From contig JAITIP010000043.1 in the NCBI GenBank assembly GCA_031279415.1, forward strand, positions 1 through 58,438: a stretch of 58,438 nucleotides of DNA, written 5' to 3'. Position numbers and translations under genes: made by a program. This DNA is from Candidatus Endomicrobium procryptotermitis (GTDB lineage: Bacteria > Elusimicrobiota > Endomicrobiia > Endomicrobiales > Endomicrobiaceae). The notes below the pieces were generated by a model. The model was not told the origin of the DNA. It saw only the letters and a program-made list of their open reading frames with translations, and made no database searches. Positions 1-24,227 of this stretch are shown piece by piece. The stretch's first letter is position 1; every line of letters starts with the position of its first letter.

Positions 1-37
1 AAGGCAGGAAGAAACCGAAATCCTTCAGAAACAAAAA

Positions 38-6000: not shown

Positions 6001-9000
6001 TATGCGTGATAAAAGAAGAATACTAAGGGACCTAGCCGATATACGTATAGTATTTTCACATGCAATGCAGGAACAGAATTATATGGACAGGCTCGGCGAA
6101 AATATCAGTGCATTAGGAAATCTTATACTTGCGGCAAATGCTATTGTTTCAGCTGAAAAAGCCCTTGCCAATGCCAATTCGGAACTCGAGAAGGTGCTTA
6201 AAAACTTCGGCATTGCCAAAACGGAAACGGGTTCATCTGTGATTGCCGAAGAATACCCTCAAATTGCGGCTTTTATGGACAGCTTTGAGAAGCCGATGCA
6301 GATTACATCTTTTGATTTGCTTGTTCAAGATGCCGTCAATTCATCACTAAGACCCACGACGTCAACTAAAACTTCGGATCCCACTGATTACGAAAAAACG
6401 GCTGCAGTAGACAGCATTATAACACAGCTCAAAAAAGACTTTTTTCCTGATAAAAAGTCTTTACCAGGAGAAAAGTCTTTGCCTGGTTATGTCCCCAGTC
6501 CTCATATAGTAAAGATGATTGTCGGCGATTACAGGGGTAATAGAAGCTCTGCAGTAATGCAGAAGTGGGCGACGGATGCCGTTAAGCGTTTGGAGTTAAA
6601 GATATTTACGGACGTCGTATGGCAGCAGATATTGAGAGTTAACAGTGGAGAGAAGTTCGACGCTATAGAAATGATTAGACCTTTAGGCGCGCTGCAGAGT
6701 ATATATGATTCGCTCAGCGACAGCGAAAAGGCAGGCGCTTCAAAAACTGCCAATATAATCCTCTCCGCCGAAGCAAACCTCTCTTATTATGAAGGTTTTT
6801 CATGGGATGAGGTAGATAAGATTGAACGGGATCTTATGAACAATATAAAACCTTATAATAAATCGTTTACGCCTTCAAATGCCATAAGAGCATTTATATG
6901 CGCACAGTATTGGCAAGAATATAAATTACAATGGGACAGGAATAAAAATTTTGATAGAAAAACTTTTTATTCTTCGTGGACAAATAATGCAATGTCTTTT
7001 TACCGTGAGACTTTCAATATTGATGCAATTCAATCAGAGCTTGCCAAACCCAATCCAGATATGTCCATTTTAAAAGAAAGATACAATAATTTATTGGATT
7101 CCGGTGCGGTATCCCGATTTCATACAGAACAAGAAAGGGCTGCCGTGATGGCTAAAGCAGATTCTCTCATTTACGGACGACCTGTTGATCCGATGCTTGA
7201 TACACAAATCCATCAAAATCTTACCGCACAGGACGCTGCTGACATGGTGTATGATATATTTGAACCGAAGTACGGAGAATCTCAGGCAGGGAAAGTAAGA
7301 AGCGCTCTTCTTGACGCTCTTCCATCTCTCAACATAGAGGTTAGATACAATAAAGGTGTAGGAGCTATATCGCTTATGACTACTATAGATAACCGCGGAG
7401 CCGTATACTATGATTTATCTCTTTCCGCAAATGTGGATGAGTTGATTAGTGGTATAAGAACCTCTGAAAGCTTAAGCAAGCTTGAAAAAGACATAGATGC
7501 TTTCAATTATCCTGGTCATACTCTTACAAAAGTTTTAAGTTCAAGGGGAGTTTACTATTATGTTGATGGTGATCCTGATGCAAGAATTTATCTTTACACA
7601 GTGGGGGGCAAACCTGTTATAAGAAATGCCGCCGGTATGATTCCTAAGATAGAAACGGCGGTAGCCCTGTCTAACCTCAAAAGGGAAGTTTCGAGATATT
7701 TTGCCGAAATCGGTATCGGCAGCAATTTGATATATGCCGTTACAAGTGGTGGCATCAAAATAATATCTTACAATGTTGGAGACACTTTAAAGTGGATTTT
7801 ACCTGACGGAACAGTAATAAGTCCTGTGAAAGCAGATGGCAAGACTGTTATGAGTCTAAGAGAGGTCATGGACGCCGTTAATGCCAATTCAGCAGGGAGA
7901 GCGGCGCAAAGAAGCGGTGTAGTAGATACTCCTTTAAACCGCAACTTCACTTTTTACTATGACAGCAAAGGCAATTTTGTAGGAACCAGTCCGGGAGCAG
8001 GGTTAAAAGGCTATGTAGTAGAGCCTTTCAAAAGAGACAGCAGCCCGATGGATGACCACGAATTTGGAAGCGCCATTCAAACTAGAGGAAAGCTTGAGCT
8101 GCTAAGGGAAACGTATGAAAAAAGGCTTAACATAACGCTTATTGACAAATATACGACAATTAACGGCGTTGAAGTATTGTATTGGCAGGTAAACGGACGT
8201 CCAATATACCCTTTCAAAGAGACAAATGGGGTTCTTACCGTTATGACGCCAGCCGATTTTAGTGAAACTGTAAGTTTTTCACAGCAGCTTTTTGATTTGA
8301 AAGCGCTTACTAAAGAGACAAGGCTAGCAAGAGAACTTAAGGATAAAAAGGGAAATATATACTGGGAAGTTACCATCAACGGCGCAAAATATAATATCCA
8401 TCCCATAATAGAAATAACAAAAGAAGATGGCACCAAAACCCGCAGGGTTCTTACAAAACAAGAACTGCTCAATACCATAGCAATTGCTCCTGTGTTGAGA
8501 TCCCTTAAAGCCGGAAATAGCAATGTAAAGGATCTAAAAGACATGTATGATGAATACGGAAGTTTATACTGGCTTGTTAACGGCAATAAGATATATCCCA
8601 TAAAGATAATTCCGGGAAAACAGGCTGCGGTTCTTAGTAATGTAGAGTTGAAAGAGGCTATAAGGCTTGCTCCAGCGCTTGGAAGGCTTAAGAGTGGGAA
8701 TACCCTCACAAGAAATGCAAGAGTCGAATTTGATGAAGATGGGAATCTGGTGTGGAAAGTAAAAATCGGAGAAAAATTTTACAATATATATCCGATTAAA
8801 GTGGTAAGAGGGGTTAATACTGTGCTCACGGCACAGGAGCTTGAAGAGGCTATAAGGCTTGCTCCTGATCTCGCAAGACTGAGGGAATATGCTGCCAGCA
8901 AAGGATACGTTATAAAAGTTGCCAATGATGAAGATGGGAATCTGGTGTGGAAAGTAAAAATTGGAGAAAAATTTTACAATATATATCCTGTTAAAGTGGT

Positions 9001-12000
9001 AAGAGGCGAGAATAAGGTGCTCACGCTGCCTGAGTTTGAAGAGACAATAAGGCTTGCTCCGGAGCTTGGAAGTCTGAGAGCAAGTGTCATCCTCGAAATC
9101 AAAGTCAAACGTGATGCAAATGGGAATCCGATCCGTGATGCAAATGGGAATCTGATATTGGGAGTTGAAATAGATGGTAAATTTCATGAAGTAAAAGATA
9201 TAGATGGTAAATTTTACGAAGTAAAAGATATTAAAGAACTCCATTCGCTCGGAAAACTAGTTGAAATAAATGGTAAATTTTACAAAGTAGAAGAGGGACT
9301 TGACCCAGATGGGAATCTGATATGGAGAGTAACAATAGACGGTAAAGTATATGAGATATATCCAGTTAAAGTGGTAAGAGGCATTAATACTGTGATCAGA
9401 GAAGAGCAGCTTAAAGCCGCCATAAGAAACGCACCGCTATTGTACGAACTGAAGACATCGTTAATAAAGGCTGGAATAAAATTTGTAACAAATAAAGACG
9501 GCGGTATAGATTTTATAGATGATGAAGGATATCTGTATTGGAAATATGAAGTAGACGGAAAATCTTACAAAATATATCCTGTTGACAGAAAGGGTAATGT
9601 TTTAACATTAGAACAAGTGCAAAGGATGATTAGAAACTTTCCCATATTGTCAAAGCTTCAGGATGATGCGCAAGCACTGGGAATAAAATTTGCAACAAAT
9701 AAAGATGGGGGTATAGATTTTTATGATGATGTCGGCGGACTGTATTGGATGATAGAAGGGTATGAAAGACCTGAACTGAGAATTTATCCTGTAAACGAGT
9801 ACGGCGAAGTAATGACTATTGAAGAAATAAAAATTGAGGCTCTTACAGATATTAAAATAAAACAAGCTGCACTCGACGCTGGAGAAAAAGGAGCTTACCT
9901 TATAGTTGAAGATCCTTTAATTATAACAACACAGAAAGAGAAAGATAGGTCTTTGTTAGATTTTATAATGAAAACTAAATTGGTTGACTACAGGACATGG
10001 TTGAGAAGACTTTGGGATAATATTTGCTCATTATTTGGTTATGAAACCGAGTCATATGAAAGATATGATACTGCGTTTAAGGAAACACTTATTGCTGATG
10101 ATGTGAAAGACCTTAGCGAAATCCAGATAATGCAGGCTCTGAGTGCTTTGAAACCAACGGAAGAGACCTGGGAAATAAATGGCAAGGTTATAGGAAAAAT
10201 AGTGGTTACCATTACAGATGTAAGGAAACTCGAAGATGGAACGTTTATCTATATTTATATGAAAGAATATATGGAGGAGGTTGAAGAAGACGGCAAAAAA
10301 ATATACATATCCAAAGGTGAAGAGTATTTTGCTGAGTATAATGGAAAAGTTTATGTAGCGTGGTATACTCCAACCGAACAGGCACGACAGAAAGCAGAAG
10401 CAGCCGTGACATTTAAAGGGATATCAGCACAGGTGGAGGGCATATTAAGCCGCAATAGATATGAAAAGATGGGAGAACTTCTTGCGGCGGTTAATGCCGG
10501 TCGCACATATGAATTGGTGCTTAACAAGAAAGGGGATAGTAGAATCGTGTTCAGCAAGGATGTGCAATCGGATAAAATGTCTGGCCTTGCCATTGAAGGA
10601 GAAATACCATCGGAGGCAGTCCACATATTAAGCCGTAATAGGGAAGAACTTCTTGCGGCAGTTAATGACGGCAAAACATATGAATTGCTGTTCGGTGAGA
10701 ATAGCAAAATCGCATTCCGTAAGGATGAATCGGGTAAGATGATTGCCGCCGTGCAGCAAAATGGGGATATGTATGGAGAATGGAAGCCTATCAGTATAGG
10801 AAACCCTATGGAATTTTCTTTCAGTGGAGGAAGAGGAGGATTTCAGACTTCACTGTTATATTTGAACCAACTCGATGGTGGTGAAGTAGGCGTTGAAGGA
10901 GGCAGCCAGAGAGTATATTATGCCAGAGCATATTCCGTTAATGATATAAATAATGCACCTAATGTTGTATCTGGAATTTCCCAATCCACAGATGGGTCCA
11001 TACAAAGAGTAGAACACATATTGGCAACAGATGGAGGGAAACAACAGCTTCAGCTGTCGCAGTCTTATGGCGATGCTTACGCAATTGAAGCTGCCACAAG
11101 AAAAGCAGTTATTAATGGCACAACTGAAGACATAAAGGCAGGCAGGGACGTAAGAGAATTTACTATTAAACACTCGGAAGTTTATTTGGGAGGACAGATA
11201 AGGCTTATAGATGGTACGCTGGTATCAATTAGCGATAAACAGATAAGGCTTATAGACGCGCTGGTACCAACTACCGATGGGCAGAAGGAACAGGTAAGGC
11301 TTATAGACGGCACGCTGATACCAATTATCAACGGAAATATAACCTTTAAAGATGGCAGGTCAATTAGCAGAGAAAAGGCTGAAAATTTTCTAAGGGCCAA
11401 AGATTTTCTAAAGAAAGAGATGCATATACTTATAGGAGCAGATAGTAAATATTATGACAATGACATGATAACCTTGAGCCATATGGATGGAATAGTAAGC
11501 ATAAGAGATTCCAAAAGTGGGGAAGGATACTCATTTCTTGGAGGAATCAAGGTCAGAGAGGACGGTTTGCGAGAGTATTATGCCAAAACACTTATAGGGC
11601 ATTACAAAACATATGAGTTTGGAGAAATTACTGAAAATGGAATGAGTGCTGGAGACAGTAAGAACATAGAGAATTTGTTTACAAGAGTAAGAAATGAAAA
11701 TATAGGGTTCCCCTATAAACCGTCCGATTTGAGATGGGCGAAATCTCAGGTATTAGATCCCAGCGACCCTACTGGACAAAAAGTTTTATATGAAACATGG
11801 GCTGCATATAATAATTTCAGTAGCCAGCCTGTGGTGAAAATAACTGAAGAAGGATTTATAGATTTTAGTGGTAAATATAACGGTATGCCTCTCGGCTTAA
11901 GGTATGACTTGAAGTCGTCGGACGAAAGCCAGATGCCCGTCAACCTTACTATTCCCGTAGAAGGCGTTGGAACTATGATAATAGACTATCACTCAGGCTC

Positions 12001-15000
12001 TGTGTTTATAGAAGAAAGAGAAGGAGAAGGACAACTGTTGAGCAAATATCATGTTACCATACTTAATTCTTCCAAGCTGTTTCCCAACGTAATAAACGAG
12101 AAGCTTCAGCCTCTTAGCAGCGGGTGGGATTGGAAAGACAGCATAAACCAAAACGACTGGAGACTCATAACCGGCAGTGAAAATATGCAGGCTATGGTGC
12201 AAAACGTAAATAATTTCGGACTTACTGCCCAAAATACCCAGCAGATTTTAAAAGTTACCAGAAAGGAAGAATATTCCTATCAAGATGTTGCGGCTGAAAA
12301 CACGCTTACAGGAGAAGACTATACGGCAGTACAGCTTGCATTTTTAGGGATACCTTCGCATACGATTTCATATCACATAAACGATAATGGAGAGAAAGAC
12401 ATCTATATCAATGAGCGAGGAGAGGAAGTTGGTTTAAGCAAAAGCTCATTCCAAGGGATAGACTGGACTAACGGCAGAATATATGTTAAAGACAACGTAA
12501 ACAGTATCGTGGAATCGGATCAACAACAATCCGCGGGTAACGCTATAAGGGCCAGAACTATAGTCAAGCAGATGGACCTTAGAGGCAATGTAAAGCAGCA
12601 GTTTGACATAGAAAATGGACAATATGTTTCTGGCATCATCGTTCCGGAGCATGACAGATATGGTACGGGACTGCGATCTTATACTCTTACCATAGAGAAG
12701 AATGGCAACGTCTATGTGACAAGCTCGTCAAAATTTAACTCTATCGTGGTGGCAAACGCTCTGGTGTACGAGCAGAACGTAAGAACCGTTTTGTTCGCCC
12801 ATGAAAGGACTCAGATAGAAGACAGGACTCCTAAGGGCTTACCCGATAATATTAAAACAGATGATTTGACCATATTTTCGCTTCAAGGCGAACTATTAGA
12901 CAAAGATGGCAACTTGCTGGAAACGAAAACTGAAAACGGCGATCAGGGAAGGCTTTTTACAGAAAAAGCATATCTATTAAATAATGCCGAAGGAAGAAAT
13001 CTCATAACGCTTTCAAATTTTTTAGTTGATAAAAATGGAGAAATTGTCAAAGTTGAGAATGACAAGGGCACGAACAGTATAGAAACGCTGTTTGGAAATC
13101 CGGCGATAATTTCTTTTGGCGAATATGCGGCAGATGCAATTTCAGAAGAACAAAGACAGCTTATGCTCGGACATCCAAGAACCATAGTAAGCTATGGCTA
13201 TGACGGCTCATTGGACTTTGACGTTTATGGCGCAAAAAATGCTGATGGGAGTTTAAAACCCATCAAAGAAGCCGTAAATGAAAGCGATTTTATCACAAAA
13301 ATGAATGATCTTAAGGTAATAGACACCGACAAAGGCGTTTCCTTAATATATACTTCTTACGGCAATCCTAATTTCAACGTAAATAATTTTATAAAAGGTT
13401 ATATTAACAGAGCGCAGCTGTACCGCAAATATTTCGGTAAATATTCTGACGACCATGCGGAGACAGTAGCTCAATATATTGTTCAAATGTCCGGATTAAA
13501 AGCCGTAGGTTTTAACAGCGACGGATTGAAGTTTTTTGAAGTTTATGATTATGATTTGCTCCATAACATAGCAGGAAACATCAATATCGGTACATATGAA
13601 ATAAATGTTTTAAACAGAATGGGCAGAGCTGAATATGGCTATCTTATAGATAATAGAGATGACAACAAATGGCATGAGTTTATGCAGTCCCTGCGCTCGA
13701 CTGATGCAGCTTCAAGCAGCAGCGAGGAGTTGGTTCAAAAATGCAAAACATTTCTGGAAAATTTATACAAAGTAGACACAGCCATTAAGAATATTCCACT
13801 AGGTGAAGGTGAAAATCTGTCCGATTTAGCCGAAGATCCTGAAAGAAGGGGTTTGATACCGTTTGAGGTAGAAGGCATAAGAATAAGCAGAATCTGGTCT
13901 GATATGGATGCCGGAGTTGAGAGAAAAAAATTATTTGGACTTATACCTATAGGGACTGCAAGTCGCGTAGTCTTCCATAATTATTATGAAGTAAATCATC
14001 TAAATACTGGCGAAGAACCAATAATGCAGAGATACCAGTATAAGTACAATGACAGAGGCGTTCTGGTAGCAAAATATCAAAGCGATATAGTCCATGACTG
14101 GCGTGGAGAATTTAAAAAAATATATGACGACTATAAAATGATGTTGAAAGAACATCCCGTTAAAGCCTTAGCTTTGACGGTAAGCATAGTCGGTCTCATA
14201 GTATATTTTGCCGCAAAAGTAATAAGGGCAAAAAGAGTGGATAATAAGAGGCGCAGGGAAATAATGGGCAGAACTATCGACGGCGGACAGCCGCTGCCTC
14301 CTTCGGGAACTTTAGAAGACAAGGCTTTGCGTCCGGCCGTCAGGGATTCTATGAATAACCCAATAACGAAAGGATTAAACGACAAGGTAATAAAAGTTAT
14401 CAGAGAGCGCTATGCGGATTTAGGATTTAACAAAACTGAAAGCTACAGAGCCATAGAGCGTCAGTTTATTTCGGATTTTCTTAAATATAATCCGCAGTTA
14501 ACCGAAAGATCAAGCGCAGCCGATATTTCCGCGTTTTTAGAAAAACAGGCAGCGGACCAGAAAATGTTTGACGATTACAAATGGTGGGTGCGCAATGTAA
14601 TGGCGGAAGCTCAAGTGTTGAACGAATTTACCAACGAAGACCGCCTGCTGTTTGACTATATTTATATAGCTACAAACAATATGCGCCAAGACGATATGGC
14701 TTTCAGAAATATGCTGTTTTACAAAGCCAAGCAGCTTATAGCCGACGGCAAAGCCAAAATGGTCGGAATTATGATAGACACAGAAGCCAACAGAATGTTA
14801 AACGTGGTTGAAAACGGTTTGACGATAAAACAACAAGTCGAGCAAATGAAAGCTGTACTCGAACTCGATAGAGCAAGAGCAGCGGACGCAAGATTGCTGA
14901 CGAAAAGGCAGATAAAAAAACTTAATAAAGCAATAGCATATTATGAAAAAAATGATGAAGAACTTGACGCTCTTGAAAAAACTTACAGAGCCTCCGGTGC

Positions 15001-18000
15001 GGACGCTCCTAATTTTGCAATGATAGAAGCCAAAATGGACGAGTTGTATGCCAAGTACGGATTCAGAGTATTATTTGGCGTCAAAGGAGCCAGCGGCAGA
15101 GGAAAAATGAGACCTGACGAAACTATAACGTATTATGATTTTGACGCTATGTTTAGAAAGCCCGGCTATGTCGCCAAATACAGTGCTATGGTGGATGATT
15201 TTGTAAGAGAAGGCTATACGACAAATATCAACAATACTCCTACGGGCAAATTGGGTTTTTCGCCTATAATGATGCCTTTTAGGGTGTATATACCTCATTC
15301 AGGAGTCGGCGGAAGCATACCTGCTAAAGTCGCTCATATATTGTTTAGCAGTCCTTTAGGTTTGCTGCAGGCTTTGACAAACCTTAAAGGAATAATAACG
15401 GTTTGGCTTGCAAATCTGGGCGTTACTTTGGGCATTATAGCGGGCATTAACGGAATTTTTACAGGATTTTTTGGCGCGGTGGGACTTACTATACTGGGGT
15501 TTCAAGTATTGCCGTTTCTTTTAGTTGCAGGCGTGGGGGTGGGAATTGCTTTAATTGTCAACCGACTGCTTAACTGGGCAGGCAACAAGCTGCAAAAATA
15601 TAATACGGTTAATGAATATTGGGGAAAAACAATAGACAATTCCCAAGACAGAGGACTTGAAGACAAAAACAGGCAAGACATTAAAAGCGCTAAAAAAGCT
15701 ATGACAAAAAGATGGGTTTTAGTTCTTATTTTCAAAACTGTGTGGGAATCTTTTCTGCTTAATACTGTGGTCAAATCGATAATAGCGACTATGGGAGGCT
15801 CGATAAGCTCTGCGTCGTTGGTTGGCAGCGGCTTAGTGTCTTTTGCAAATCCAATAATGACGGCAATAATAATAGCTCTTCTTGTATTATCTCTTTTTGT
15901 AATATATCACAAAGCGATAAAAAAATTCGTTGAAGCCAAAGCTACGGACATCAATACTGGGGAACAAAGAAACAATATATGGGATAAATGGAGATATTCT
16001 TTAACAAATGCCATAACTGTTTCAGTTTCTATATTAACTCTTGTGCTTGGCGCGTTGCTGTTATATGCCGTTCCGGGATATATGACGGTGGCTCTTTTAA
16101 TTCTTCCTTTTCTATTATTTACATTCTTGGATTTCTTCGGGTTCTGGGAAATATTTAAAGGACTGCATATGTGGTCGCAAAAGAAAAAAGAAGGATATTT
16201 TGCCGGCAAGAGCTGGGATGTCTGGCAGAAAGCTTTCTACGGAAACGATTCATATGCGTCGGTTGAAGGGCGTATAACAAATGCTAAAGCACTGAGTCAG
16301 CTGAGTCATCCAAGTCAAGCTGATTTTGACGCTTTGCGCGACATGCGCGACAGTCAGTTTTTTAAAGAATGGGATATGACTTTTCTTTCTAAAAAGGTCT
16401 CAAGGAAACTTACGCCCAAACAAAAAACAACGGCTTTCGCTTTGTATTTCAATAAAATAATAATGTCTTATTACAGAACGGGAAAAATTTCCGCGCAGGA
16501 ATATGAAAAATACAAATTTGAAATATCCGATTATGCGGGAGGGAATAATTTAGACAGAACAATAACAAAAATGCCTATATTAGATATTCCAAAAAGTTTG
16601 GGCGGCAGAGAAATGTTCTACAGGCTTTTTCAGGAGACAAACATAAGGGCGCGACAGGGTTTAAGAACTCCGGACGTAAAAGACATCAGCGTTTCTGCGG
16701 TTATTCCCACTTACGGGGAATCTGTTACGCATTTGTTAGATAATAATACCGGCGGCGCAACGGAAAAATTAAACAGCGATAAGCTAAATCCGGACGGGCA
16801 CATTTTGCTTACGCATTTGATAGAAGCATACGATGGTGAATGGGCAAATATGCTTTCAAGGCTTGACGAAGGCGTTGATTTCCGCGGGCTCAAAAAAACT
16901 CTTAATGAAGACGATAAGGAAGTATTGGCGCATATGAAAGATATGCTTTATGAAAACGGGAAAGTAAAAAAAGGACAGGAATTAAGAAGAGCTGGCGGCC
17001 ATGAACTTCCCGACTGTTGGATAAAGCAGGAAATAAGCAGATGGGCAGACGAAAAACTACAGCCTCTAAGTCCTACGCAGCTTGGCGTTTTAAATCTCAG
17101 AGAGGCGCTTGATTTTATAATAGAGATAGAATACGCCGACCAAAGAAACGGCCTTTCGGAAACGGACTGGCAGGAAAAAGTGCATTCTGCGGGCGCTCAG
17201 CATTTTGAGATAGTGTCGGGTTATCAGTCTTTCGGAGACGTTTATAAAGACGGGGCGGGAATAAACGACCCCAGATACATAGGGCTTGCTGAAAATTTGA
17301 AATTATACAGAGAAATGATAGTTCCCGTGATGCACAGAATGAAGCATAATAATTCGCAGTATAAACTTCTAAAAGAAAAGGAAATCGGGAAGTTGGCGTC
17401 GGATTATGAAAAAGAACTTATAAATCAAATAGAAAACGAATACGAAAGAAGAAAAGCAATAAAGAAAATGCAGGAAGAATATAATGAATTAATAAAGAAA
17501 GCGCCCGCCGGCAGAACGGAAAAAGACAGAGAACGCATAGAAGAAATTGAAAACGGCGATTTTCCCGATAGTTTAAAAGAATACTTTTTCTATCAAAGAT
17601 TTCTTAGAGCTGTCGGCGCTCAATCAGACCGTTTCTATCAAAGATTTCTTAGAGCTGTCGGCGCTCGTGCTTTCGACGGTTATATGAGCAGTCGTATCTC
17701 CGAAATTGAAAAGATACGCAAAGAACATACCAGCTTAATGGCAAAACCCGAAGCGGACAGAACTGAAGAAGACAATAAACAAATAAAAGAACTTCAAGCA
17801 AAGGATATTATATTTCAATGGGAAAAATTCGACGTTTATCAGCCTGTCGAACTTACGTCGTTCAGGCATCTTAAAGCGCAGGACGTTTCTTTGGCGGCGT
17901 ATAATAAACTGCTTGAAAAAAAGAATAACAATACGGCCCCTACCGAAGAACTTGCTTTGCTTGATGCCGTTGAAGCCGAAATTAAAAAAGAGAAAGCAAA

Positions 18001-21000
18001 ATATGAAAGATGGAAAAAAGAAGGAAAGGAAACGTCTTTGGTAGAGAAGTATAACGACGACCAGATAAAAACTATATTTAACAACGCTGAAAATAAAAAA
18101 ATTACGGTAGTTGTCTTTGACGATACAGGCACGACGGTTTCGCCTGTTCACGGGGTTATCGGCATGGGCAAGGTTGACCATCACACTCATTTGGAAGGCG
18201 ATGTTTCAAAAGAGTTTATACTGCAGCTTGATATGAACCAGAATATTTTTGTGCAGTCTGCGCTTTCCCTGTTTGGAGCTTTGACACCGATGGTTGAAGA
18301 CGAGGAAGTTTATAATGTCAGCCTGCAGGAACAAATACCTACAAAGAGGCTTACAAACGTCGGAGCAAAAGGCGCGTCGGCAGAAGAAGGCTTTAACGCT
18401 TCGCATGCCGATATGAACGAATTGTGGCAGCTGCATATGTACGGGCATCCCAATTTCTTAAGAACAAGATTTATAAAATCGATGTCGGGACAAAGCAAAG
18501 GCTTAGTCAGCGAAGACGCTACGGCGGGGCAGGCTGCTAAAACAAAAGGCGGAAAAACTGTCGCTTTAGGCGGTTATGTAGTTGAGAAAACAAGAGAAGC
18601 AAGAAATACGGAATTTACCGCAATGTTTATAAAGTTTGCAAGCGGCGCCGTAGAAATGACGCAGTCTTCTTATGTCTATGAATACAATAAAGCTCAAAGA
18701 AGAGCTTTCGGTCGTTTCGGAAGCATTTTTGGAGAAGCTACAAATTTTGTAGGCGGATACGGTTTTTATATTAAAGAATGGCTTACCACTTTGACCATAA
18801 CAACTTTCCTGTTTGCAATTTTATTCTTGGGGATTAGCGGATTTTCAGGTTTTGGCTTTGCGTTTATACTTGCGTTAATAGGGCTTGTTATGTCTCAGTC
18901 GGGCGCGGTAATCGGCTTTGTAAAAGATATGTACGCTTTCAATGAAAGTTTAGGCGGAGCTTTTAAGAAACTTGTTATCAACTTTATATATTTTGTCGAT
19001 AAAATCAGAACGCACAGCACCGGCGCCAGTTTTGGTTTGCTGGGGAAAGCCGCTCACGCAAACACTGGAAGAGGAAGCGGAACGGCTTTGATTTCTATTC
19101 TTGCCGAAAGGCATAATGGAGAAACTAGCGACGATGCTATTGCAAACGCTAAAAAAAGCGAAAACGCCGTTATGGCTACGATGAACAGCCATTTTATTCC
19201 GGAAGCTTCAAACATACTTATTATAGCCGCTTCATTTTTATTTTCAGCCAGCATGACTTTCTTCTTGTCAGTCGTGTATATAATTATACCTTTCGGAGTA
19301 ATGCTGGGGCAAAGCGCTTTGCTTCCCGGATTTAATATTTTTCAATATCCCGCGAAAGAAGTTTTTAAAAATATCAAAAACGAGAGTAAAAAATGGATGG
19401 ATATAGTTTTCGGCAAAGAAGTGAAAGAGATAAAAGACGCTGAAGGAAATATAACGGGATACTCCGCAAGACCAAGTATGCCCAGATTCCTTACTTTTCT
19501 CGTAGGAGGCATAATGCTGCTGACGCTTTCGGCCGCAAGCCTTCTTGGATTTGCAATTAAACTTATCGTCAGTGGCATTGATGGTATTGTTAAGTTTGGA
19601 AATATGCTTGGCGCTTCTTTAGCCATATGGAGAAACGGCTGGGGAGGTGGTACTCCCATCCTTGTCATAAGTCCCGCTTTGTTTATTTTTGTACCAATCG
19701 TTCTACTATTTTCTTTCTCAATATATTGGGGTTATAGAAGCCAGAAAAAAATAATTGAACAAAACAAAGATAAAATTTCCAAACTCAAAGGTGAAGTAAT
19801 AGCTGCTGAGATAGAATCGGATAATAATAAAGATAATGATGAGTTAAAAAAACAAGCCGAGGCGAAGAGAAAAGAATATGAAGAATTACTTGGAACTTCT
19901 TATACTGAATCAAAAATAAAATCATTGTTGAACTCTCTTGATAAAGATAAAGAAAATATAAACGCAAAAATGGAAATAGAAAAGTTTTCGAATCTGTATT
20001 TTATGCAGGGACAGTCAATAGCTTCAGTAAATGACAAACTTACGGCTGAAAGGCTTGATGTTTCTGCGTTTAAAAATATGGCGGAAGTATCAGAGATTAT
20101 GAAAACTTATGCGGCGCTTCAGAGAATTTTTGGAACAAAAATAGAGGACGGACTGAGAACAGAGATAGAATTAGGCAGACAACAACCTTCACAAACGGCA
20201 GTCGGTGATATCGAAGCCGAAGCCGAAGCCGAAATTAAAACAGCACAAGTAGTTCAAGAACCATTGGCACCTGCAGAAGAAACGGCAGGGCAGTCTACAC
20301 CGGGAGATTCCGCTGCAGAATCAATATCGGAACCAGTGGAACCTGCGAAGACGAAAATAAAAGCAATCAAAGACTACTTAAGGAAATTGATAGGATTAGT
20401 AGCCGGCAGGATACATCCGGGAGTGCTTATACGGAGATTGACAGATAAAAATATTGTCGAAGTCCAAGACGGACAAAAATTGGACTTGCCGACGACAGTG
20501 CAGCTATTTGTTGAAAATTATGACATATCGGAGGAAACGAGAAAACAAGTTTCGTCAATAAATGAAATAGGCATAAAAGCGGCGATAATACAAAGAGTTG
20601 GTAAAAGAAAGGATATTCCAGAAAATGAATACAAAAGGATCAAGCCGCATACAATCGTTCAGATAAAGTATGGGGAAAGTACGTATGACATAAAAGTAGA
20701 ACATTATATTCCTAATAATCTCACGGATAATATAGAATCTTTCAGGGCAAATTCGGTTATACAAACCGTCGTTTCGCATAATAAACATCTTGAGGAAGAA
20801 ATATCTGACAAAACATTAAAAGAGAAGCTATATAATCGGGCATATATTTTGTCAACAAGATATTTTGCTGCTGACCTAAACGACAATAAGAAGATTGAGA
20901 ATACTAACAAAGATGTGAATGCATTGAATTCTAGTGGAATAGGGATGATAGTTTATAAAGGCGTTTCGCTTGATAATGAAGATGATGAAAAAAGAATTGA

Positions 21001-22537
21001 TACAGGCATTTTGGAGTTGAATGGCGAGGAGATAGCGACATATTATGTGGAAAATAGCTTCAACAAAGGAAAAACGGAAGAATTGAAGGCGGCTATATCC
21101 GCAAGTGAAGATAGAGGAAAAGAATGGCAGATGCCGGGTTATGAGTACGGTCTGATGATAGATACGCAGAAGTCGAAGATATTTGATGATAAAGTAAAGA
21201 CGGAAAATAATATGAAAAAAGAAATATCTAGAAACGTAACGCTTGTAAGAATATCACATGGTGATATGAAAAGGGCGATAGAGAGGATATGGAAAGAAAG
21301 CGAGGGAATACCTCTGACAGAAGATGAATTGAAGGATGTTGTGAGAATAAAGAATATTCTTGACGCAAGCAAAGAAATGAAAAAGATAGCGGATTTAAAT
21401 GCTTCTGATTTGATAAATGAAGATAAAACGGTAAATGAGGAACTTATAAAAAGAGTATATCAGTTGAAATTTAATGGAATATATGCGGATGTGACAGGAC
21501 TGGATGAGGCAAAGGCAGAATATGTAATAAAAGCGATAGCAGAAGCCGCGAAAAAGTATGGTATAGACACGCAGAATTATATAATATTTGATGGAAATAA
21601 TGCGGAGAGAAATAATGAAATGTTATCTGCAAATAAGAAGTTGTTAGAAGCCGAGGGGATAACGGGAGTGATTAGATTTGAGAAGAAATACGGAGAAGAA
21701 GAAAGAAAAGAGATGATAGATAAAAGTGTAAACGAGACAATAGCGATAGAAATGCCAGAGATGACGAAAGGCAAAAGAGAGGGAAAAACTGTGTCTGTTG
21801 CATTTGCTGCGAAGATTAAGAGTGATAAGACAATAGGAAGAAGGGAAAGAGGAGAAAGCAAGAGCGCGGTCGAGAGATATAATGTTGCGCATAAGAGTGG
21901 ATTGAAATCGAATTATATACTGAACATAGAAGCAAAAAACATAGAGAAGTTAAAAGAATATATGACTTCAAAAGAAGAGAAAAATTTTGAAGGAATGCTT
22001 GAAGCGTTGAAAAAAGCAGGGATAGGAGGAGAAAACGTGATGTGTCAATACATATTGCAGAGGGCGAAAGAAAATACAGCTGAGAGTTATGCGGAAGCAA
22101 AGGGGTATTTGAGGGGGAGTGTGGAGAATTATTTGGAGAGAGAATATATAAAGTATATAAAGGTAAAAGGCGAAACATATAAAAAAGTAGGAGTGGGAGA
22201 TAGAAAAGCTATAAGATCTCTGCTGCTGTATCTGTCGATTAATGGAGAAGAGATAAATGAAAGTACGATAAAAGCGATATTTGAGCAACAGAGGGCGTCG
22301 ATGGAAGGAGAAGACAGCAGTATTAGGGAGCTGATGGAAGAAGTAAACGGACTGATAAACGAAATAGTAAAAGATCCATTTAGTGTGTCAGCGGAGAAGA
22401 AAGGAGAAGCAAAGAGAGCGGTTACACTGATAGGTGATTCGATAGCTGGGTTGGTAACAGACACAATGATAGAGAACGCCAAAACCGGTGCAAAAATATC
22501 TGCGTCAGCAGTAAGGCAAATTTTGCAGGCAGCATAG
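38..22537 (+). CDS. Giant multidomain membrane protein with C39-like domain and GT48 (callose/FKS)-like glucan synthase domain
   Basis: The protein has at least 7,499 residues. The frame is open back to base 2 with no stop and no ribosome site precedes the ATG at 38, so it may begin outside the window. Residues about 37-60 form a signal-like hydrophobic stretch ending in TTAQAN. Residues 262-400 look like a C39/papain-like fold: Cys267 in NCAALSLA, His359 in GNGHYISI, Asp375. Residues about 550-2400 are helical with a recurrent [RK]DIxLDxLIQ motif. Residues 2705-3270 hold about eight beta-repeats. A lone membrane helix lies near 4707-4728. From about 5100 there are membrane clusters (5101-5181, 5225-5378, 6248-6568) around a soluble core. 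The core matches GT48 landmarks in order: VSAVIPTYGES (5552), W5669 with REAL, HFEIVSGYQSFGD (5722), DMNQN (6065), YGHP (6135), SEDATAG (6158). This predicts a UDP-glucose-type beta-glucan synthase in the inner membrane. The C-terminal 930 residues are charged, with an acidic Pro-rich linker, and are not recognised. The GT48 call rests on motif order recalled from the family. Confidence 0.8.
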   Translation: MESSQKKTSFLSKFFENASLTLNKIIASTAFRIGTKHLAAASGLAVVMTAAGTVTTAQANDLTETEASSTAFQLQSLFDTEQAVQLGEYEKAYLELGDYEVDEANLISSLEAAIFQFSQIRDAIERKEVAADKEIIPSLLEIRRILDGIEWYIAGLNNDQNGFADITFQLNLLDTDDEKNRFIRERMEVGASLEYAQSAFEKYRNDLTRRKEDIEDRIRLAEKVKDLIQKRLAFLEGKLNEMSPVAVDTEITSADIADSEPASILNCAALSLASILSTQSNLTEKIQDIAVSLVRKMIGEEIDIVDGQVMFPMSVLAQTLSEETGADWKGYNVTVEELKEALSDENDSIILHISRGNGHYISIIAKGEGQLEVNDSGSVTSVSADELGNYLSATYGWTSGAILTPKALPYERADIEKLKGAQSVTSDNYFTKYADAVSRLQERINRDYPQIQNAAAVAELLVQVYGPENVNNILNGTVAIAHKVNTGIRIVSGVAVGLEQLGNSGALSDVSLIFSGLAIANDIVDLGKANEMSKAITDFNALKANYGINPTSPLSKVFPKKGDIIKNLLIKHNYDAEQAFDSIVFSFIFEDSILGQYIPRNFKLSPALRADILSPSNRLSGESLDNWKTRMITKYSKDIMLDALIQYNSGRHKATSYDYWEMAGIIVGLPTEILRTRTDVGITSSGRLGGSSDTDIYYPGDNFTGKQGVINRLTDNISRISGSYSSSDLMKIVRGLNADMLPAQSFSFYDEGRWNSERTTVQGLLPQAAIENAVFKSFGTYKLSGGLMKYINKYSGEFDNASLASWANSVVNKYRNDIYLDIIIQRLEVGKKFSNIGFTQSLKNLVENFNPKSRNFHFYKANDATNAIKAADNYIADREGRVNEDSLRELKDLLKKKIGENYKNYVSDDDMRNELSASKNDVQRAYLSIIQKKVFVAIAMSPDAAISGWGYNARVGREKTGDRDIEWKEKPRGSNWSLDSYAKIRDLVVFSYSSIPSILPQGYSVSDSADYKMRAYLVSEEYKNAGNIDARLGKLVQKFKEIIVLDAQMYLTTQPGGTKSQTARQLQIEFNSISGKSNTAANLELVRHIKSSVFPGSTGQSDALSVVNSVREYMIMQFELPANYDFSDKIKTTMMNYYDENKSKYSDFSNIQWVTKLFEVAISDIAYEDLNRYKESISLGGSDYIPIISHIILSGATLYTRELRDMSLTITAGPNSAPGMIVDKIRAAAAAQSQPHITIFALLLNASPEESLDVYSQRDKDDLFKWIKDTEKPALEKAVLARIPAKYAIKTLDIFILEKMFTDYLNSSFGEDKRQWVNKHWAEYETEINEYIVSTNKTAADELIGTAGSKTDSEKYRTNMLAAAERLYETAMVQKQPLFTEQAADKKMYEFIIVVMARKQLNIFLPEEGYKISDKVIEKMIEEIKASSGLGLSEADMVERVLNKFQKDIFLDVLIQYKDNTTMKFGEKILLFFWTFTNDLPFGIGTISRAINESTALASADNETVLDHLKQKYSNRGYNADSAQKNDLLRGLSVKNTPLVVFSSREEEKIIGWVNKNEGKIAVQFLISILFEQYGIKISNKYIKALEGNYKHIVDSSRRNWIHEMMKDPTIRVIYVYILEKLADKGSTGKRDSDFFTNADTAKKALAENNLLVNIDEVVEIVESFESKPEGTDNALTEADTIRSAMLNERIKALRLMAESAPNDEVLRQALISNRYDVIQALQYLRSPAASAVTPISSVTTAATRRTSQSAKEEMTFEQFCAGLNKDLVDYNNISDGNTQALIKKYYGTDQTADKSFAKSMAELTIATYMLNMEFRKTTPDAVVISVLQKAVGSSLKSLSVSPVFDDNNKVVMPSATPIESPAIPKEKVKANINMITNSFFDSLRSRGLLEKSGMSEEELRTDVSKYITNLYASNISNKAFTALATADAILGEMAGLGLANYAAITSYAIELESAIRGIERGAPTLKHTDRAKIARSQFAINTASEVLMRDKRRILRDLADIRIVFSHAMQEQNYMDRLGENISALGNLILAANAIVSAEKALANANSELEKVLKNFGIAKTETGSSVIAEEYPQIAAFMDSFEKPMQITSFDLLVQDAVNSSLRPTTSTKTSDPTDYEKTAAVDSIITQLKKDFFPDKKSLPGEKSLPGYVPSPHIVKMIVGDYRGNRSSAVMQKWATDAVKRLELKIFTDVVWQQILRVNSGEKFDAIEMIRPLGALQSIYDSLSDSEKAGASKTANIILSAEANLSYYEGFSWDEVDKIERDLMNNIKPYNKSFTPSNAIRAFICAQYWQEYKLQWDRNKNFDRKTFYSSWTNNAMSFYRETFNIDAIQSELAKPNPDMSILKERYNNLLDSGAVSRFHTEQERAAVMAKADSLIYGRPVDPMLDTQIHQNLTAQDAADMVYDIFEPKYGESQAGKVRSALLDALPSLNIEVRYNKGVGAISLMTTIDNRGAVYYDLSLSANVDELISGIRTSESLSKLEKDIDAFNYPGHTLTKVLSSRGVYYYVDGDPDARIYLYTVGGKPVIRNAAGMIPKIETAVALSNLKREVSRYFAEIGIGSNLIYAVTSGGIKIISYNVGDTLKWILPDGTVISPVKADGKTVMSLREVMDAVNANSAGRAAQRSGVVDTPLNRNFTFYYDSKGNFVGTSPGAGLKGYVVEPFKRDSSPMDDHEFGSAIQTRGKLELLRETYEKRLNITLIDKYTTINGVEVLYWQVNGRPIYPFKETNGVLTVMTPADFSETVSFSQQLFDLKALTKETRLARELKDKKGNIYWEVTINGAKYNIHPIIEITKEDGTKTRRVLTKQELLNTIAIAPVLRSLKAGNSNVKDLKDMYDEYGSLYWLVNGNKIYPIKIIPGKQAAVLSNVELKEAIRLAPALGRLKSGNTLTRNARVEFDEDGNLVWKVKIGEKFYNIYPIKVVRGVNTVLTAQELEEAIRLAPDLARLREYAASKGYVIKVANDEDGNLVWKVKIGEKFYNIYPVKVVRGENKVLTLPEFEETIRLAPELGSLRASVILEIKVKRDANGNPIRDANGNLILGVEIDGKFHEVKDIDGKFYEVKDIKELHSLGKLVEINGKFYKVEEGLDPDGNLIWRVTIDGKVYEIYPVKVVRGINTVIREEQLKAAIRNAPLLYELKTSLIKAGIKFVTNKDGGIDFIDDEGYLYWKYEVDGKSYKIYPVDRKGNVLTLEQVQRMIRNFPILSKLQDDAQALGIKFATNKDGGIDFYDDVGGLYWMIEGYERPELRIYPVNEYGEVMTIEEIKIEALTDIKIKQAALDAGEKGAYLIVEDPLIITTQKEKDRSLLDFIMKTKLVDYRTWLRRLWDNICSLFGYETESYERYDTAFKETLIADDVKDLSEIQIMQALSALKPTEETWEINGKVIGKIVVTITDVRKLEDGTFIYIYMKEYMEEVEEDGKKIYISKGEEYFAEYNGKVYVAWYTPTEQARQKAEAAVTFKGISAQVEGILSRNRYEKMGELLAAVNAGRTYELVLNKKGDSRIVFSKDVQSDKMSGLAIEGEIPSEAVHILSRNREELLAAVNDGKTYELLFGENSKIAFRKDESGKMIAAVQQNGDMYGEWKPISIGNPMEFSFSGGRGGFQTSLLYLNQLDGGEVGVEGGSQRVYYARAYSVNDINNAPNVVSGISQSTDGSIQRVEHILATDGGKQQLQLSQSYGDAYAIEAATRKAVINGTTEDIKAGRDVREFTIKHSEVYLGGQIRLIDGTLVSISDKQIRLIDALVPTTDGQKEQVRLIDGTLIPIINGNITFKDGRSISREKAENFLRAKDFLKKEMHILIGADSKYYDNDMITLSHMDGIVSIRDSKSGEGYSFLGGIKVREDGLREYYAKTLIGHYKTYEFGEITENGMSAGDSKNIENLFTRVRNENIGFPYKPSDLRWAKSQVLDPSDPTGQKVLYETWAAYNNFSSQPVVKITEEGFIDFSGKYNGMPLGLRYDLKSSDESQMPVNLTIPVEGVGTMIIDYHSGSVFIEEREGEGQLLSKYHVTILNSSKLFPNVINEKLQPLSSGWDWKDSINQNDWRLITGSENMQAMVQNVNNFGLTAQNTQQILKVTRKEEYSYQDVAAENTLTGEDYTAVQLAFLGIPSHTISYHINDNGEKDIYINERGEEVGLSKSSFQGIDWTNGRIYVKDNVNSIVESDQQQSAGNAIRARTIVKQMDLRGNVKQQFDIENGQYVSGIIVPEHDRYGTGLRSYTLTIEKNGNVYVTSSSKFNSIVVANALVYEQNVRTVLFAHERTQIEDRTPKGLPDNIKTDDLTIFSLQGELLDKDGNLLETKTENGDQGRLFTEKAYLLNNAEGRNLITLSNFLVDKNGEIVKVENDKGTNSIETLFGNPAIISFGEYAADAISEEQRQLMLGHPRTIVSYGYDGSLDFDVYGAKNADGSLKPIKEAVNESDFITKMNDLKVIDTDKGVSLIYTSYGNPNFNVNNFIKGYINRAQLYRKYFGKYSDDHAETVAQYIVQMSGLKAVGFNSDGLKFFEVYDYDLLHNIAGNINIGTYEINVLNRMGRAEYGYLIDNRDDNKWHEFMQSLRSTDAASSSSEELVQKCKTFLENLYKVDTAIKNIPLGEGENLSDLAEDPERRGLIPFEVEGIRISRIWSDMDAGVERKKLFGLIPIGTASRVVFHNYYEVNHLNTGEEPIMQRYQYKYNDRGVLVAKYQSDIVHDWRGEFKKIYDDYKMMLKEHPVKALALTVSIVGLIVYFAAKVIRAKRVDNKRRREIMGRTIDGGQPLPPSGTLEDKALRPAVRDSMNNPITKGLNDKVIKVIRERYADLGFNKTESYRAIERQFISDFLKYNPQLTERSSAADISAFLEKQAADQKMFDDYKWWVRNVMAEAQVLNEFTNEDRLLFDYIYIATNNMRQDDMAFRNMLFYKAKQLIADGKAKMVGIMIDTEANRMLNVVENGLTIKQQVEQMKAVLELDRARAADARLLTKRQIKKLNKAIAYYEKNDEELDALEKTYRASGADAPNFAMIEAKMDELYAKYGFRVLFGVKGASGRGKMRPDETITYYDFDAMFRKPGYVAKYSAMVDDFVREGYTTNINNTPTGKLGFSPIMMPFRVYIPHSGVGGSIPAKVAHILFSSPLGLLQALTNLKGIITVWLANLGVTLGIIAGINGIFTGFFGAVGLTILGFQVLPFLLVAGVGVGIALIVNRLLNWAGNKLQKYNTVNEYWGKTIDNSQDRGLEDKNRQDIKSAKKAMTKRWVLVLIFKTVWESFLLNTVVKSIIATMGGSISSASLVGSGLVSFANPIMTAIIIALLVLSLFVIYHKAIKKFVEAKATDINTGEQRNNIWDKWRYSLTNAITVSVSILTLVLGALLLYAVPGYMTVALLILPFLLFTFLDFFGFWEIFKGLHMWSQKKKEGYFAGKSWDVWQKAFYGNDSYASVEGRITNAKALSQLSHPSQADFDALRDMRDSQFFKEWDMTFLSKKVSRKLTPKQKTTAFALYFNKIIMSYYRTGKISAQEYEKYKFEISDYAGGNNLDRTITKMPILDIPKSLGGREMFYRLFQETNIRARQGLRTPDVKDISVSAVIPTYGESVTHLLDNNTGGATEKLNSDKLNPDGHILLTHLIEAYDGEWANMLSRLDEGVDFRGLKKTLNEDDKEVLAHMKDMLYENGKVKKGQELRRAGGHELPDCWIKQEISRWADEKLQPLSPTQLGVLNLREALDFIIEIEYADQRNGLSETDWQEKVHSAGAQHFEIVSGYQSFGDVYKDGAGINDPRYIGLAENLKLYREMIVPVMHRMKHNNSQYKLLKEKEIGKLASDYEKELINQIENEYERRKAIKKMQEEYNELIKKAPAGRTEKDRERIEEIENGDFPDSLKEYFFYQRFLRAVGAQSDRFYQRFLRAVGARAFDGYMSSRISEIEKIRKEHTSLMAKPEADRTEEDNKQIKELQAKDIIFQWEKFDVYQPVELTSFRHLKAQDVSLAAYNKLLEKKNNNTAPTEELALLDAVEAEIKKEKAKYERWKKEGKETSLVEKYNDDQIKTIFNNAENKKITVVVFDDTGTTVSPVHGVIGMGKVDHHTHLEGDVSKEFILQLDMNQNIFVQSALSLFGALTPMVEDEEVYNVSLQEQIPTKRLTNVGAKGASAEEGFNASHADMNELWQLHMYGHPNFLRTRFIKSMSGQSKGLVSEDATAGQAAKTKGGKTVALGGYVVEKTREARNTEFTAMFIKFASGAVEMTQSSYVYEYNKAQRRAFGRFGSIFGEATNFVGGYGFYIKEWLTTLTITTFLFAILFLGISGFSGFGFAFILALIGLVMSQSGAVIGFVKDMYAFNESLGGAFKKLVINFIYFVDKIRTHSTGASFGLLGKAAHANTGRGSGTALISILAERHNGETSDDAIANAKKSENAVMATMNSHFIPEASNILIIAASFLFSASMTFFLSVVYIIIPFGVMLGQSALLPGFNIFQYPAKEVFKNIKNESKKWMDIVFGKEVKEIKDAEGNITGYSARPSMPRFLTFLVGGIMLLTLSAASLLGFAIKLIVSGIDGIVKFGNMLGASLAIWRNGWGGGTPILVISPALFIFVPIVLLFSFSIYWGYRSQKKIIEQNKDKISKLKGEVIAAEIESDNNKDNDELKKQAEAKRKEYEELLGTSYTESKIKSLLNSLDKDKENINAKMEIEKFSNLYFMQGQSIASVNDKLTAERLDVSAFKNMAEVSEIMKTYAALQRIFGTKIEDGLRTEIELGRQQPSQTAVGDIEAEAEAEIKTAQVVQEPLAPAEETAGQSTPGDSAAESISEPVEPAKTKIKAIKDYLRKLIGLVAGRIHPGVLIRRLTDKNIVEVQDGQKLDLPTTVQLFVENYDISEETRKQVSSINEIGIKAAIIQRVGKRKDIPENEYKRIKPHTIVQIKYGESTYDIKVEHYIPNNLTDNIESFRANSVIQTVVSHNKHLEEEISDKTLKEKLYNRAYILSTRYFAADLNDNKKIENTNKDVNALNSSGIGMIVYKGVSLDNEDDEKRIDTGILELNGEEIATYYVENSFNKGKTEELKAAISASEDRGKEWQMPGYEYGLMIDTQKSKIFDDKVKTENNMKKEISRNVTLVRISHGDMKRAIERIWKESEGIPLTEDELKDVVRIKNILDASKEMKKIADLNASDLINEDKTVNEELIKRVYQLKFNGIYADVTGLDEAKAEYVIKAIAEAAKKYGIDTQNYIIFDGNNAERNNEMLSANKKLLEAEGITGVIRFEKKYGEEERKEMIDKSVNETIAIEMPEMTKGKREGKTVSVAFAAKIKSDKTIGRRERGESKSAVERYNVAHKSGLKSNYILNIEAKNIEKLKEYMTSKEEKNFEGMLEALKKAGIGGENVMCQYILQRAKENTAESYAEAKGYLRGSVENYLEREYIKYIKVKGETYKKVGVGDRKAIRSLLLYLSINGEEINESTIKAIFEQQRASMEGEDSSIRELMEEVNGLINEIVKDPFSVSAEKKGEAKRAVTLIGDSIAGLVTDTMIENAKTGAKISASAVRQILQAA
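8150..9840 (+). repeat. Tandem beta-repeat array inside the giant protein (about 8 units)
   Basis: Roughly eight units of 55-75 residues follow the pattern D-G-[NY]-L-x-W-x-[VY]-x-[IV]-[GD]-[EG]-K-x-Y-x-I-Y-P-[IV]-[KD], then a short helix ending in [AF]P-x-L-x-x-L. Units 4 and 5 (about 8720 and 8920) are almost identical at DNA level, which implies recent unit duplication. Around 9105-9300 shorter internal repeats (DANGN twice, IDGKF three times) show slippage-like growth. Function unknown; such arrays often form extended surface or spacer structures. Confidence 0.85.
10430..10750 (+). repeat. Two-copy internal repeat (about 55 residues) in the giant protein
   Basis: Two consecutive segments share the order ILSRNR, ELLAAVN, [GD]G[RK]TYEL, then I[VA]F[SR]KD and SxKM. 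The first copy begins near 10440 and the second near 10625. This is a separate family from the 8.1-9.8 kb array. Confidence 0.8.
11190..11335 (+). repeat. Three-copy short repeat (QIRLID-type) in the giant protein
   Basis: The hexapeptide [QV]RLID followed by G/A-T-L-[VI] and a turn occurs three times in succession, beginning near 11196, 11240 and 11295. The DNA copies (aggcttatagac/t) are nearly identical, indicating recent expansion. Confidence 0.8.
17587..17666 (+). repeat. 45-bp in-frame direct duplication within the GT48-like domain
   Basis: A 35-bp stretch beginning tttctatcaaag recurs exactly 45 bp later (17587 and 17632). It encodes FYQRFLRAVGA twice with a 15-residue period. The duplication lies between the IVSGYQ and DMNQ landmarks and preserves the frame. 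Confidence 0.95.
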
Positions 22538-22847: not shown

Positions 22848-24035
22848 TTAGAAACCGATTTGTGTTCTGATACCGTAAACAAAAACGTTATCTTCGGCAG
22901 TGTTGCCGCCATAAGTATTGCTTAAATACTGCAATGAAGGCGTTATTATGACATGTTCATTTATTGCAAAAGCATAATAAACTTCCGTATTTATCTCGCT
23001 GCCGTCTTTCTCAAGAAAGCCTGCATCGTAAATGTCTCTTGACGTATTGGCATAACCACATGCAATGCCTAAAAGATCATTGTCTCTTGACCATGATACG
23101 CCCGAAAACTGTACTCCTATGCTTGCGGCAATTGAAGAAGGTGCATAAAAGAAATCATAATCATCGTTAACTCCATCTCCATCGGTATCTATTTCATATA
23201 ACACACTAATTGATGGATCTCTGTAACCGAATCTTGCAAAAATGCCTATGGTTTCGGTTATTTTCTGGTCTGCGCTTATTCCAAAACCTGAAACACCCTC
23301 TTGAAATTCATTTTTGTTAACATTTGAATATGCTAAATTAGCGTCATTATTATTCCAATAAAATATTCTGTAATTTCCAGTTTCATTCGGCTTAAACGCC
23401 AGCTGTACTGCGTTAAAACCTTTGGTATCAAAATGAGATAAATCGCTGTTTGTTTCAAGGTAAGAATAAGAAAACTCTATCTGTTCTATCGGAGAGTAAG
23501 TTACATTTATCCCGAATTTAAAATAATCTACAGGATATACTACCAAAGGATTTAGAACAAAAGCATAATTTAAAAACTGTGACGTTTCGTCATTGGCATA
23601 TGCATTTTGGTCAAAATAAAGAGCTGGATTTAATCTTCCTATAGTTATAGAGAGTTTTTCGTCAAAAAGTGATTGTTTATACCACAATTCAGCCACGGTC
23701 AAAGTATTTTGGGTGTTCCATACATCGCCGTTAATGCCGTTGGTATATGACCACACTCCAAGACCGTCTCCCTGACCCGCTATAAGATGGGAGAAAATAT
23801 GTGCGCCGTTTCCTAAATCTTTTCCTATGGTCAAGTCAAACGAATATGCTAAATCGTTTTGGACTTTACCATCTTCACGTGAATTGACTTTCGGAGTTCC
23901 CTGTAAAATTATTGTTCCGTAAGCGCTTATTTCAAGTCCTAACTTGTCTGCTACGCTGTCTTCCTGAGCTATGGCTATGTTTCCGCCTGCAATAACCAAA
24001 GCGGCTGTCAATGCTGCTAAAAGTTTTATATTCAT
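22848..24035 (-). CDS. OprB-like outer-membrane (carbohydrate) porin
   Basis: This 395-residue protein starts at the ATG preceded by AGAGGA; the longer frame to 24062 lacks a ribosome site. It has an N-terminal signal peptide (MNIKLLAALTAALVIAGG, cleavage after IAIA). The rest alternates aromatic and polar residues as in an outer-membrane beta-barrel and ends in phenylalanine (RTQIGF), the usual barrel-assembly signal. The segment with ITPSLQYLSNTYGG resembles the C-terminal OprB consensus (TPxLQY). It would allow small solutes, probably sugars, to cross the outer membrane. It lies downstream of nifH in the same direction but is separated by a structured 190-nt leader, so it is probably a separate unit. 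The substrate cannot be read from sequence. Confidence 0.75.
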   Translation of the reverse strand: MNIKLLAALTAALVIAGGNIAIAQEDSVADKLGLEISAYGTIILQGTPKVNSREDGKVQNDLAYSFDLTIGKDLGNGAHIFSHLIAGQGDGLGVWSYTNGINGDVWNTQNTLTVAELWYKQSLFDEKLSITIGRLNPALYFDQNAYANDETSQFLNYAFVLNPLVVYPVDYFKFGINVTYSPIEQIEFSYSYLETNSDLSHFDTKGFNAVQLAFKPNETGNYRIFYWNNNDANLAYSNVNKNEFQEGVSGFGISADQKITETIGIFARFGYRDPSISVLYEIDTDGDGVNDDYDFFYAPSSIAASIGVQFSGVSWSRDNDLLGIACGYANTSRDIYDAGFLEKDGSEINTEVYYAFAINEHVIITPSLQYLSNTYGGNTAEDNVFVYGIRTQIGF

Positions 24036-24210: not shown

Positions 24211-24227
24211 TTTAATATTGGCGTTTT

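Follow-up and report, generated by a model that had tools for sequence, protein, structure and literature searches.

Enzymes of glycosyltransferase family 48 (GT48) are the target of the echinocandin drugs and make callose in eukaryotes, and to our knowledge they have been described from eukaryotes only. A long reading frame from Candidatus Endomicrobium procryptotermitis (Elusimicrobiota), in which FKS1-like motifs had been recognized by eye, raises the question of whether a bacterium also encodes a member of this family and, if so, what that member might do. No bacterial GT48 member was named in the literature that we searched. The window referred to below is the whole stretch of DNA analysed, 58,438 nucleotides of contig JAITIP010000043.1.

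Layout of the giant reading frame

The first part of the window (nt 2-22537, forward strand) is a single open frame of 7,511 residues plus a stop codon, with no internal stop. The frame is open at its 5' end, and the missing N terminus is probably encoded at the end of contig C4, which closes with a frame that matches the N terminus. All of the motifs quoted in the original prediction were recovered from this one frame, each where it had been placed, and alignment of the core with FKS1 upheld the claim that they occur in the same order (Table 1). The polytopic clusters said to flank a soluble core were likewise found in hydropathy profiles, with six hydrophobic segments before the core, a soluble stretch running to about residue 6260, and at least four segments after it. 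The core contains an insert of some 130 residues that is missing from its nearest relatives in the alignment, and the C-terminal module terminates in a conserved IL.AA tail. No domain was convincingly identified in the remainder of the protein with Pfam or NCBIfam, and an impression of a papain/C39-like domain near residues 280 to 400 was unsupported on checking. Genes for an OprB porin and a NifH-like protein are located on the same contig and represent bacterial surroundings.

Table 1. Features of the giant reading frame in the window
Feature	Nucleotides	Residues	Strand	Basis or comment
Giant open reading frame	2..22537		+	Open at 5' contig end; window start is contig start in the genome
Single predicted transmembrane (TM) segment, followed by soluble stretch of ~390 residues	14168..14224	4723-4741	+	Hydropathy
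Six predicted TM segments before soluble core	15392..16144	5131-5381	+	Hydropathy; FKS1 topology from PMC12715860
Predicted GT48 catalytic core	16646..18805	5549-6268	+	Profile matches and alignment
PTYGES	16706	5569	+	Read in giant frame
Glu equivalent to FKS1 E851, within PTYGES	16718..16720		+	Alignment
WADEKLQPLSPTQLGVLNLREAL		about 5680-5703	+	Read in giant frame
HFEIVSGYQSFGD	17201	5734	+	Read in giant frame
Core insert of ~130 residues	17438..17830	~5813-5943	+	Gap between aligned segments
GMGKVDHHTH	18161	6054	+	Read in giant frame
Lys equivalent to FKS1 K1082, within GMGK	18170..18172		+	Alignment
LQLDMNQN	18221	6074	+	Read in giant frame
D-M-N equivalent to FKS1 D1102-A-N1104 (DxN)	18230..18238		+	Alignment; motif role from PMC12715860
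MYGHPNFL	18437	6146	+	Read in giant frame
YGHP equivalent to FKS1 1193-1196	18440..18451		+	PDB search and alignment
SEDATAG	18509	6170	+	Read in giant frame
Glu-Asp equivalent to FKS1 E1221-D1222 (catalytic ED)	18512..18517		+	Alignment
GGYV	18569	6190	+	Read in giant frame
K-T-R-E equivalent to FKS1 KGRD 1246-1249	18587..18598		+	Alignment
C-terminal TM block	18785..19726	~6262-6575	+	Hydropathy: four segments by peak picking, ~six by eye
TGR in C-terminal TM block	19064-19072		+	Matches TGR of FKS1
C-terminal module common with paralogous giant protein on contig C13	20360..22534		+	31% identity, E = 6e-82

Relationship to the GT48 family

Sequence and profile comparisons indicate that the region is almost certainly a genuine bacterial relative of GT48, in the sense of homology to that family. 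Scanned alone with hmmscan, the window domain matched PF02364 (Glucan_synthase, GT48) at an E value of 4.1e-9 and 35.6 bits, 1.6 bits below the curated cut-off of 37.2 bits; the second family, Glyco_trans_2_3 (GT2, PF13632), was far behind at an E value of 0.0037. This profile search had been set beforehand as the test capable of refuting the prediction, and PF02364 emerged as the best family, with no other membrane family matching better. PF02364 was not listed when the protein was scanned in pieces of 2,500 residues, but it did appear with shorter pieces and with relatives: it matched seven of the eight scanned members of the window clade (best E value, 4.8e-12) and reached 47.7 bits, above the cut-off, in the same-genus relative G136. 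A scan of 199 genomes of the phylum with this profile returned four matches above the cut-off, including those in G031 (217 bits; E = 1.8e-64, the best obtained), G026 (112 bits), and G058 (95 bits), and all four sit in stop-free frames of 3,691 to 9,048 residues; the cut-off was exceeded in none of 14 control genomes.

The domain from G031 (L055) scored 229.5 bits against PF02364 by hmmscan and retrieved yeast FKS1 by plain phmmer at an E value of 6.5e-35 over FKS1 residues 811 to 1319, with a second aligned stretch that takes in the TGR motif. The plant callose synthases (GSL/CalS) belong to the same Pfam family as the window domain, and L055 presumably shares with them wording such as YRxQPLARTVRG. 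Sister-genome sequences matched PF02364 with E values down to 1e-67, and L071, a domain whose genome (G258) belongs to a separate family within the phylum, gave a GT48 match at 3.3e-26. Searches with the window domain found the sequences of G026 (1.2e-21), G058 (1.0e-14), G031 (1.8e-12), and G258 (1.8e-8), and a profile of the window clade matched one built from L055, L057, and L056 at 4e-67 over 866 columns; with bridge sequences left out, the window-clade profile matched FKS1 at 6.1e-7. When a profile of 16 bacterial cores was run against all PDB chains, FKS1 and GSC2 (PDB 7xe4, 7yuy, 9pe1, and 9wzs) were retrieved at 2.9e-37 to 1.4e-36, and the next match stood at 0.12. The window domain as a single query also placed FKS1 at the top of the PDB matches, yet at an E value of only 0.3, and a profile of the paralogue clade alone (A1) did not find FKS1 in the PDB, although it matched the L055 group at 5e-51. 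AlphaFold2 models obtained from three sequences had mean pLDDT values of 34.5 and 31.8, too low to interpret.

It is very unlikely that the domain is a GT2-type, cellulose-synthase-like enzyme that merely resembles GT48. Bacterial GT2 synthases such as BcsA cellulose synthase and curdlan synthase are likewise processive membrane enzymes with a GT-A-type core, and PF13632 also matches weakly, at 0.004 in the window and 8.5e-8 in L071; in both sequences, however, PF02364 is the better match, a DxN motif occupies the place of the GT2 DxD, and the profile of bacterial cores retrieved no GT2 chain among its PDB matches up to an E value of 1, with FKS1/GSC2 at 3e-37. Solved structures of GT2 synthases are present in the PDB. 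The assignment to GT48 originally proposed is thus sustained by the PF02364 match, by a PDB profile match confined to FKS1/GSC2, and by the invariance of the catalytic residues considered below.

Catalytic residues, donor sugar, and product

In FKS1, E1221 and D1222 form an essential ED pair, D1102-A1103-N1104 (DAN) takes the place of DxD, and Y849, E851, K1082, and N1085 are probable contacts of UDP-Glc (PMC12715860). We aligned FKS1 with 18 bacterial sequences, that of the window included, and found the equivalents of E851, K1082, D1102, N1104, E1221, and D1222 to be identical in all 18, as were those of W942, Q948, G1081, E1155, F1176, Y1193, G1194, K1246, K1261, and G1265. The motifs YGHP and KxRE/D, together with a TGR behind the core, are further features common to FKS1 and the window domain. 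Y849 is kept in the window and is variable among its relatives; at the position of N1085, the window and most of its relatives have His, and L055, L056, and L070 have Asn. Identity to FKS1 is about 20% for the window domain, as for most bacterial members, and 29% for L055, and the window protein departs from FKS1 in the change of N1085 to His, the core insert, a length of more than 7,500 residues, and its bacterial host. FKS1 has six TM helices, a cytosolic GT domain, and 11 further TM helices (PMC12715860); the six predicted helices ahead of the window core correspond in number and order to TM1-6, whereas four to about six helices follow the core in the window, compared with eleven in FKS1, and about eleven follow it in the C13 paralogue and in G026, these bacterial counts resting on hydropathy.

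Comparison of the window domain with L064 gave a dN of 0.14 and a dS of 0.98 (dN/dS, about 0.14), and the domain is under purifying selection. Since the catalytic residues are conserved in bacterial sequences with pairwise identities as low as approximately 17 to 30%, a working enzyme is favoured, and the family matches, the invariant residues, and the dN/dS ratio together make an active processive glycan synthase the most likely reading; we regard activity of the bacterial domain as likely. Loss of catalysis, with the GT48-derived domain acting in the giant protein as a membrane scaffold or channel, is improbable: the divergence of the family, most members of which have about 20% identity to FKS1, and a host protein of otherwise unknown function would suit such a role, but catalytic residues unchanged throughout the 18 sequences, certain of which share no more than 17 to 25% identity with one another, and the low dN/dS ratio would not.

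All eukaryotic GT48 enzymes known to us make 1,3-beta-glucan. For the plant enzymes, this is documented (PMC3797821). The chances that the bacterial domain would also produce 1,3-beta-glucan appear to be about even, and such a glucan may, as in the original prediction, have an envelope or storage role. Canonical GalU did not exceed the cut-off in any of eight carriers tested (the window's own genome and seven others), and GalT was not found in the own genome with PF01087, an indirect argument against an ordinary supply of UDP-glucose; the GalU cut-off is strict, with only 5 of 14 control genomes passing, and a divergent UDP-glucose pyrophosphorylase is therefore possible. PF01704 (UDP-glucose pyrophosphorylase) was uninformative as a further marker, since it had no match in any control genome either. 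The absence of GalU above the cut-off from the carriers and the change of N1085 to His leave room for a donor other than UDP-glucose. A GT48-family synthase of unchanged fold and chemistry could use a different donor (dTDP-, CDP-, or another NDP-sugar) or form a different linkage and thereby make another polymer, a possibility to be taken seriously even though we consider it unlikely. It gains from the GalU result, set against the presence in the own genome of RfbA-like (glucose-1-phosphate thymidylyltransferase type) and RfbF-like nucleotidyltransferase genes identified by eye, and from the altered N1085 and variable Y849; it loses from the constancy of the residues most closely tied to FKS1 catalysis, from the product of the eukaryotic enzymes, and from the capacity of the strict GalU cut-off to miss divergent enzymes.

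Giant-protein hosts and a proposed mechanism

The search for homologues in other Elusimicrobia that was suggested with the original prediction was fruitful, with a GT48 domain in 16 of 341 Elusimicrobiota genomes; 14 of these belong to the same family as the window, one to a second family of that order, and one to a distantly related family. The domain was absent from the listed members of genus g2, which belongs to the same family and has smaller genomes (0.6 to 1.4 Mb), and searches of phage, plasmid, and viral collections recovered no relative of L055. Eukaryotic contamination or misassembly might be suspected of a family described in the literature from fungi, plants, and algae, but it is extremely improbable in view of stop-free frames of up to 10,988 residues, which lie on contigs of up to 258 kb in numerous independent genomes from a single bacterial family, with bacterial genes adjoining. 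Maximum-likelihood analysis of the core placed FKS1 within the set of bacterial rows, in a group that also holds L055 and L057 (support, 89/82); this tree lacks a root and contains long branches, and FKS1 is its sole eukaryotic row, so we claim no direction of descent from it.

Complete frames of relatives encode 8,368 to 10,988 residues. Four relatives were compared in detail (the C13 paralogue from the window's own genome, G000, and the proteins of G014, G136, and G026), and hydropathy showed in each a hydrophobic anchor at the N terminus and a bundle of 10 to 11 segments near residues 1800 to 2400, with the GT48 unit located thousands of residues behind the bundle. A SecA-like ATPase precedes the bundle: an alignment of the four proteins matched SecA in the PDB at 4.9e-19, and Pfam matches were obtained for the C13 paralogue (PF07517, 4.1e-6), G026 (PF21090, 5.6e-5), and G014 (DEAD, 0.0014). 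In the window itself the gene is truncated and does not include this region. Should the SecA-like region and the GT core both face the cytosol, hydropathy would place the long middle region outside the cytoplasm. Giant proteins of similar length and with many helices are known from the same kind of bacteria, the Omnitrophota and Elusimicrobiota (PMC10066038 and PMC11573180; West-Roberts et al. 2023, cited in PMC12057145), and the excerpts of PMC10066038, PMC11573180, and PMC12057145 consulted here term their functions unknown, adhesive, or degradative and mention neither GT48 nor glucan synthase.

We suggest as the likely explanation of the locus that an FKS1-like GT48 synthase has been built into a giant membrane protein; the activity, donor, linkage, topology, and purpose of the domain we infer by analogy. 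A synthase-plus-channel unit would be made up of six helices, a GT-A-type catalytic domain on the cytosolic side, and a further block of helices. An activated sugar, most likely UDP-glucose, would be bound by the cytosolic core and transferred with inversion to the growing chain; the ED pair would serve as the catalytic residues, and DxN would replace DxD. The chain, most likely 1,3-beta-glucan, would then be pushed out through the flanking helices of the protein itself. The thousands of residues upstream of the synthase would lie outside the cytoplasm, so that the extracellular part of the same protein would be next to the emerging polymer and could be coated or anchored by it.

With a bacterial branch in which the catalytic site is intact, the possible origins of GT48 would become wider, further systems would be available in which to study FKS1 chemistry, and an enzymatic function would be assigned to giant proteins, the roles of which have been called poorly understood; those roles would thereby become directly testable by enzyme assay. 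More speculatively, and with considerable doubt, giant proteins that also carry a SecA-like ATPase and a 10- to 11-helix bundle may be the working context of a bacterial GT48 lineage whose diversity is no less than its distance from FKS1. A single polypeptide would then combine a motor for translocation, an extracellular region of great length, and a synthase that also exports its glycan, and the 1,3-beta-glucan synthases of eukaryotes may have arisen from bacterial enzymes of this kind, not the other way round.

With regard to the SecA-like part itself, canonical SecA is encoded by a gene separate from that of the giant protein, and the Walker A motif of the C13 copy looks degenerate (GKGKQ).

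Modules shared among the giant proteins

In four giant proteins that also bear GT48, one of them encoded by the organism's own genome, the N-terminal third contains a SecA-like ATPase region and, after it, a helix bundle (see the table). A profile of the SecA-like region matched SecA in a profile search of the PDB (E=4.9e-19), and canonical secA lies at a separate location. The giant-protein N-terminal module (about aa 45-600) is present in about a dozen copies in the own genome, within frames of about 700 to 11,000 aa. Several giant proteins, namely, those of the window and of loci L066, L074, L085, and L087, have in common a C-terminal module whose end is a conserved IL.AA tail, perhaps a sorting or docking signal.

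Features of the loci in the table
Feature	Location	Remark
SecA-like ATPase region, then 10-11-helix bundle	L081:12374-17326	own-genome contig C13
Same	L072:10307-15259
Same	L075:12295-17247
Same	L077:7845-12797
N-terminal module copies	C4, C13, C18, C19, C20, C21, C36, C37, C41, C46	own-genome contigs
C-terminal module, IL.AA tail at end	window 20360-22534
Core segments aligning twice	G146:C11:12590-15307 and G152:C156	L062, L063
GT48 core	L071:4752-6077 (G258)	in 3,066-aa frame
Neighbors of giant gene	window 22848-25103 and 33887-37012 (-)	OprB carbohydrate porin, NifH-like protein and others (last section)

Variation in and around the GT48 core

The L071 core, carried by G258, a genome of a distantly related family in the phylum, matched PF02364 (E=3.3e-26) and, over the cut-off, the GT2 profile PF13632 (E=8.5e-8); judged by these matches, it may link GT48 to GT2. 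In two relatives, L062 and L063, short core segments align two times and in scrambled order; judging from the alignments, it looks as though pieces of the core recur within the insert region. In one giant protein, the L056 (G026) frame, residues 2547-2703 lie downstream of the GT48 unit and match the TIM barrel of glycoside hydrolase family 2 (PF02836; E=2.7e-6, over the cut-off).

Genes adjoining the giant gene

Beyond the porin and the NifH-like protein, the neighbors include two nitrogenase-component-1-like proteins, Cys/Met PLP enzymes, and an NMT1-like binding protein, and together they look like a nitrogenase-paralogue cluster.
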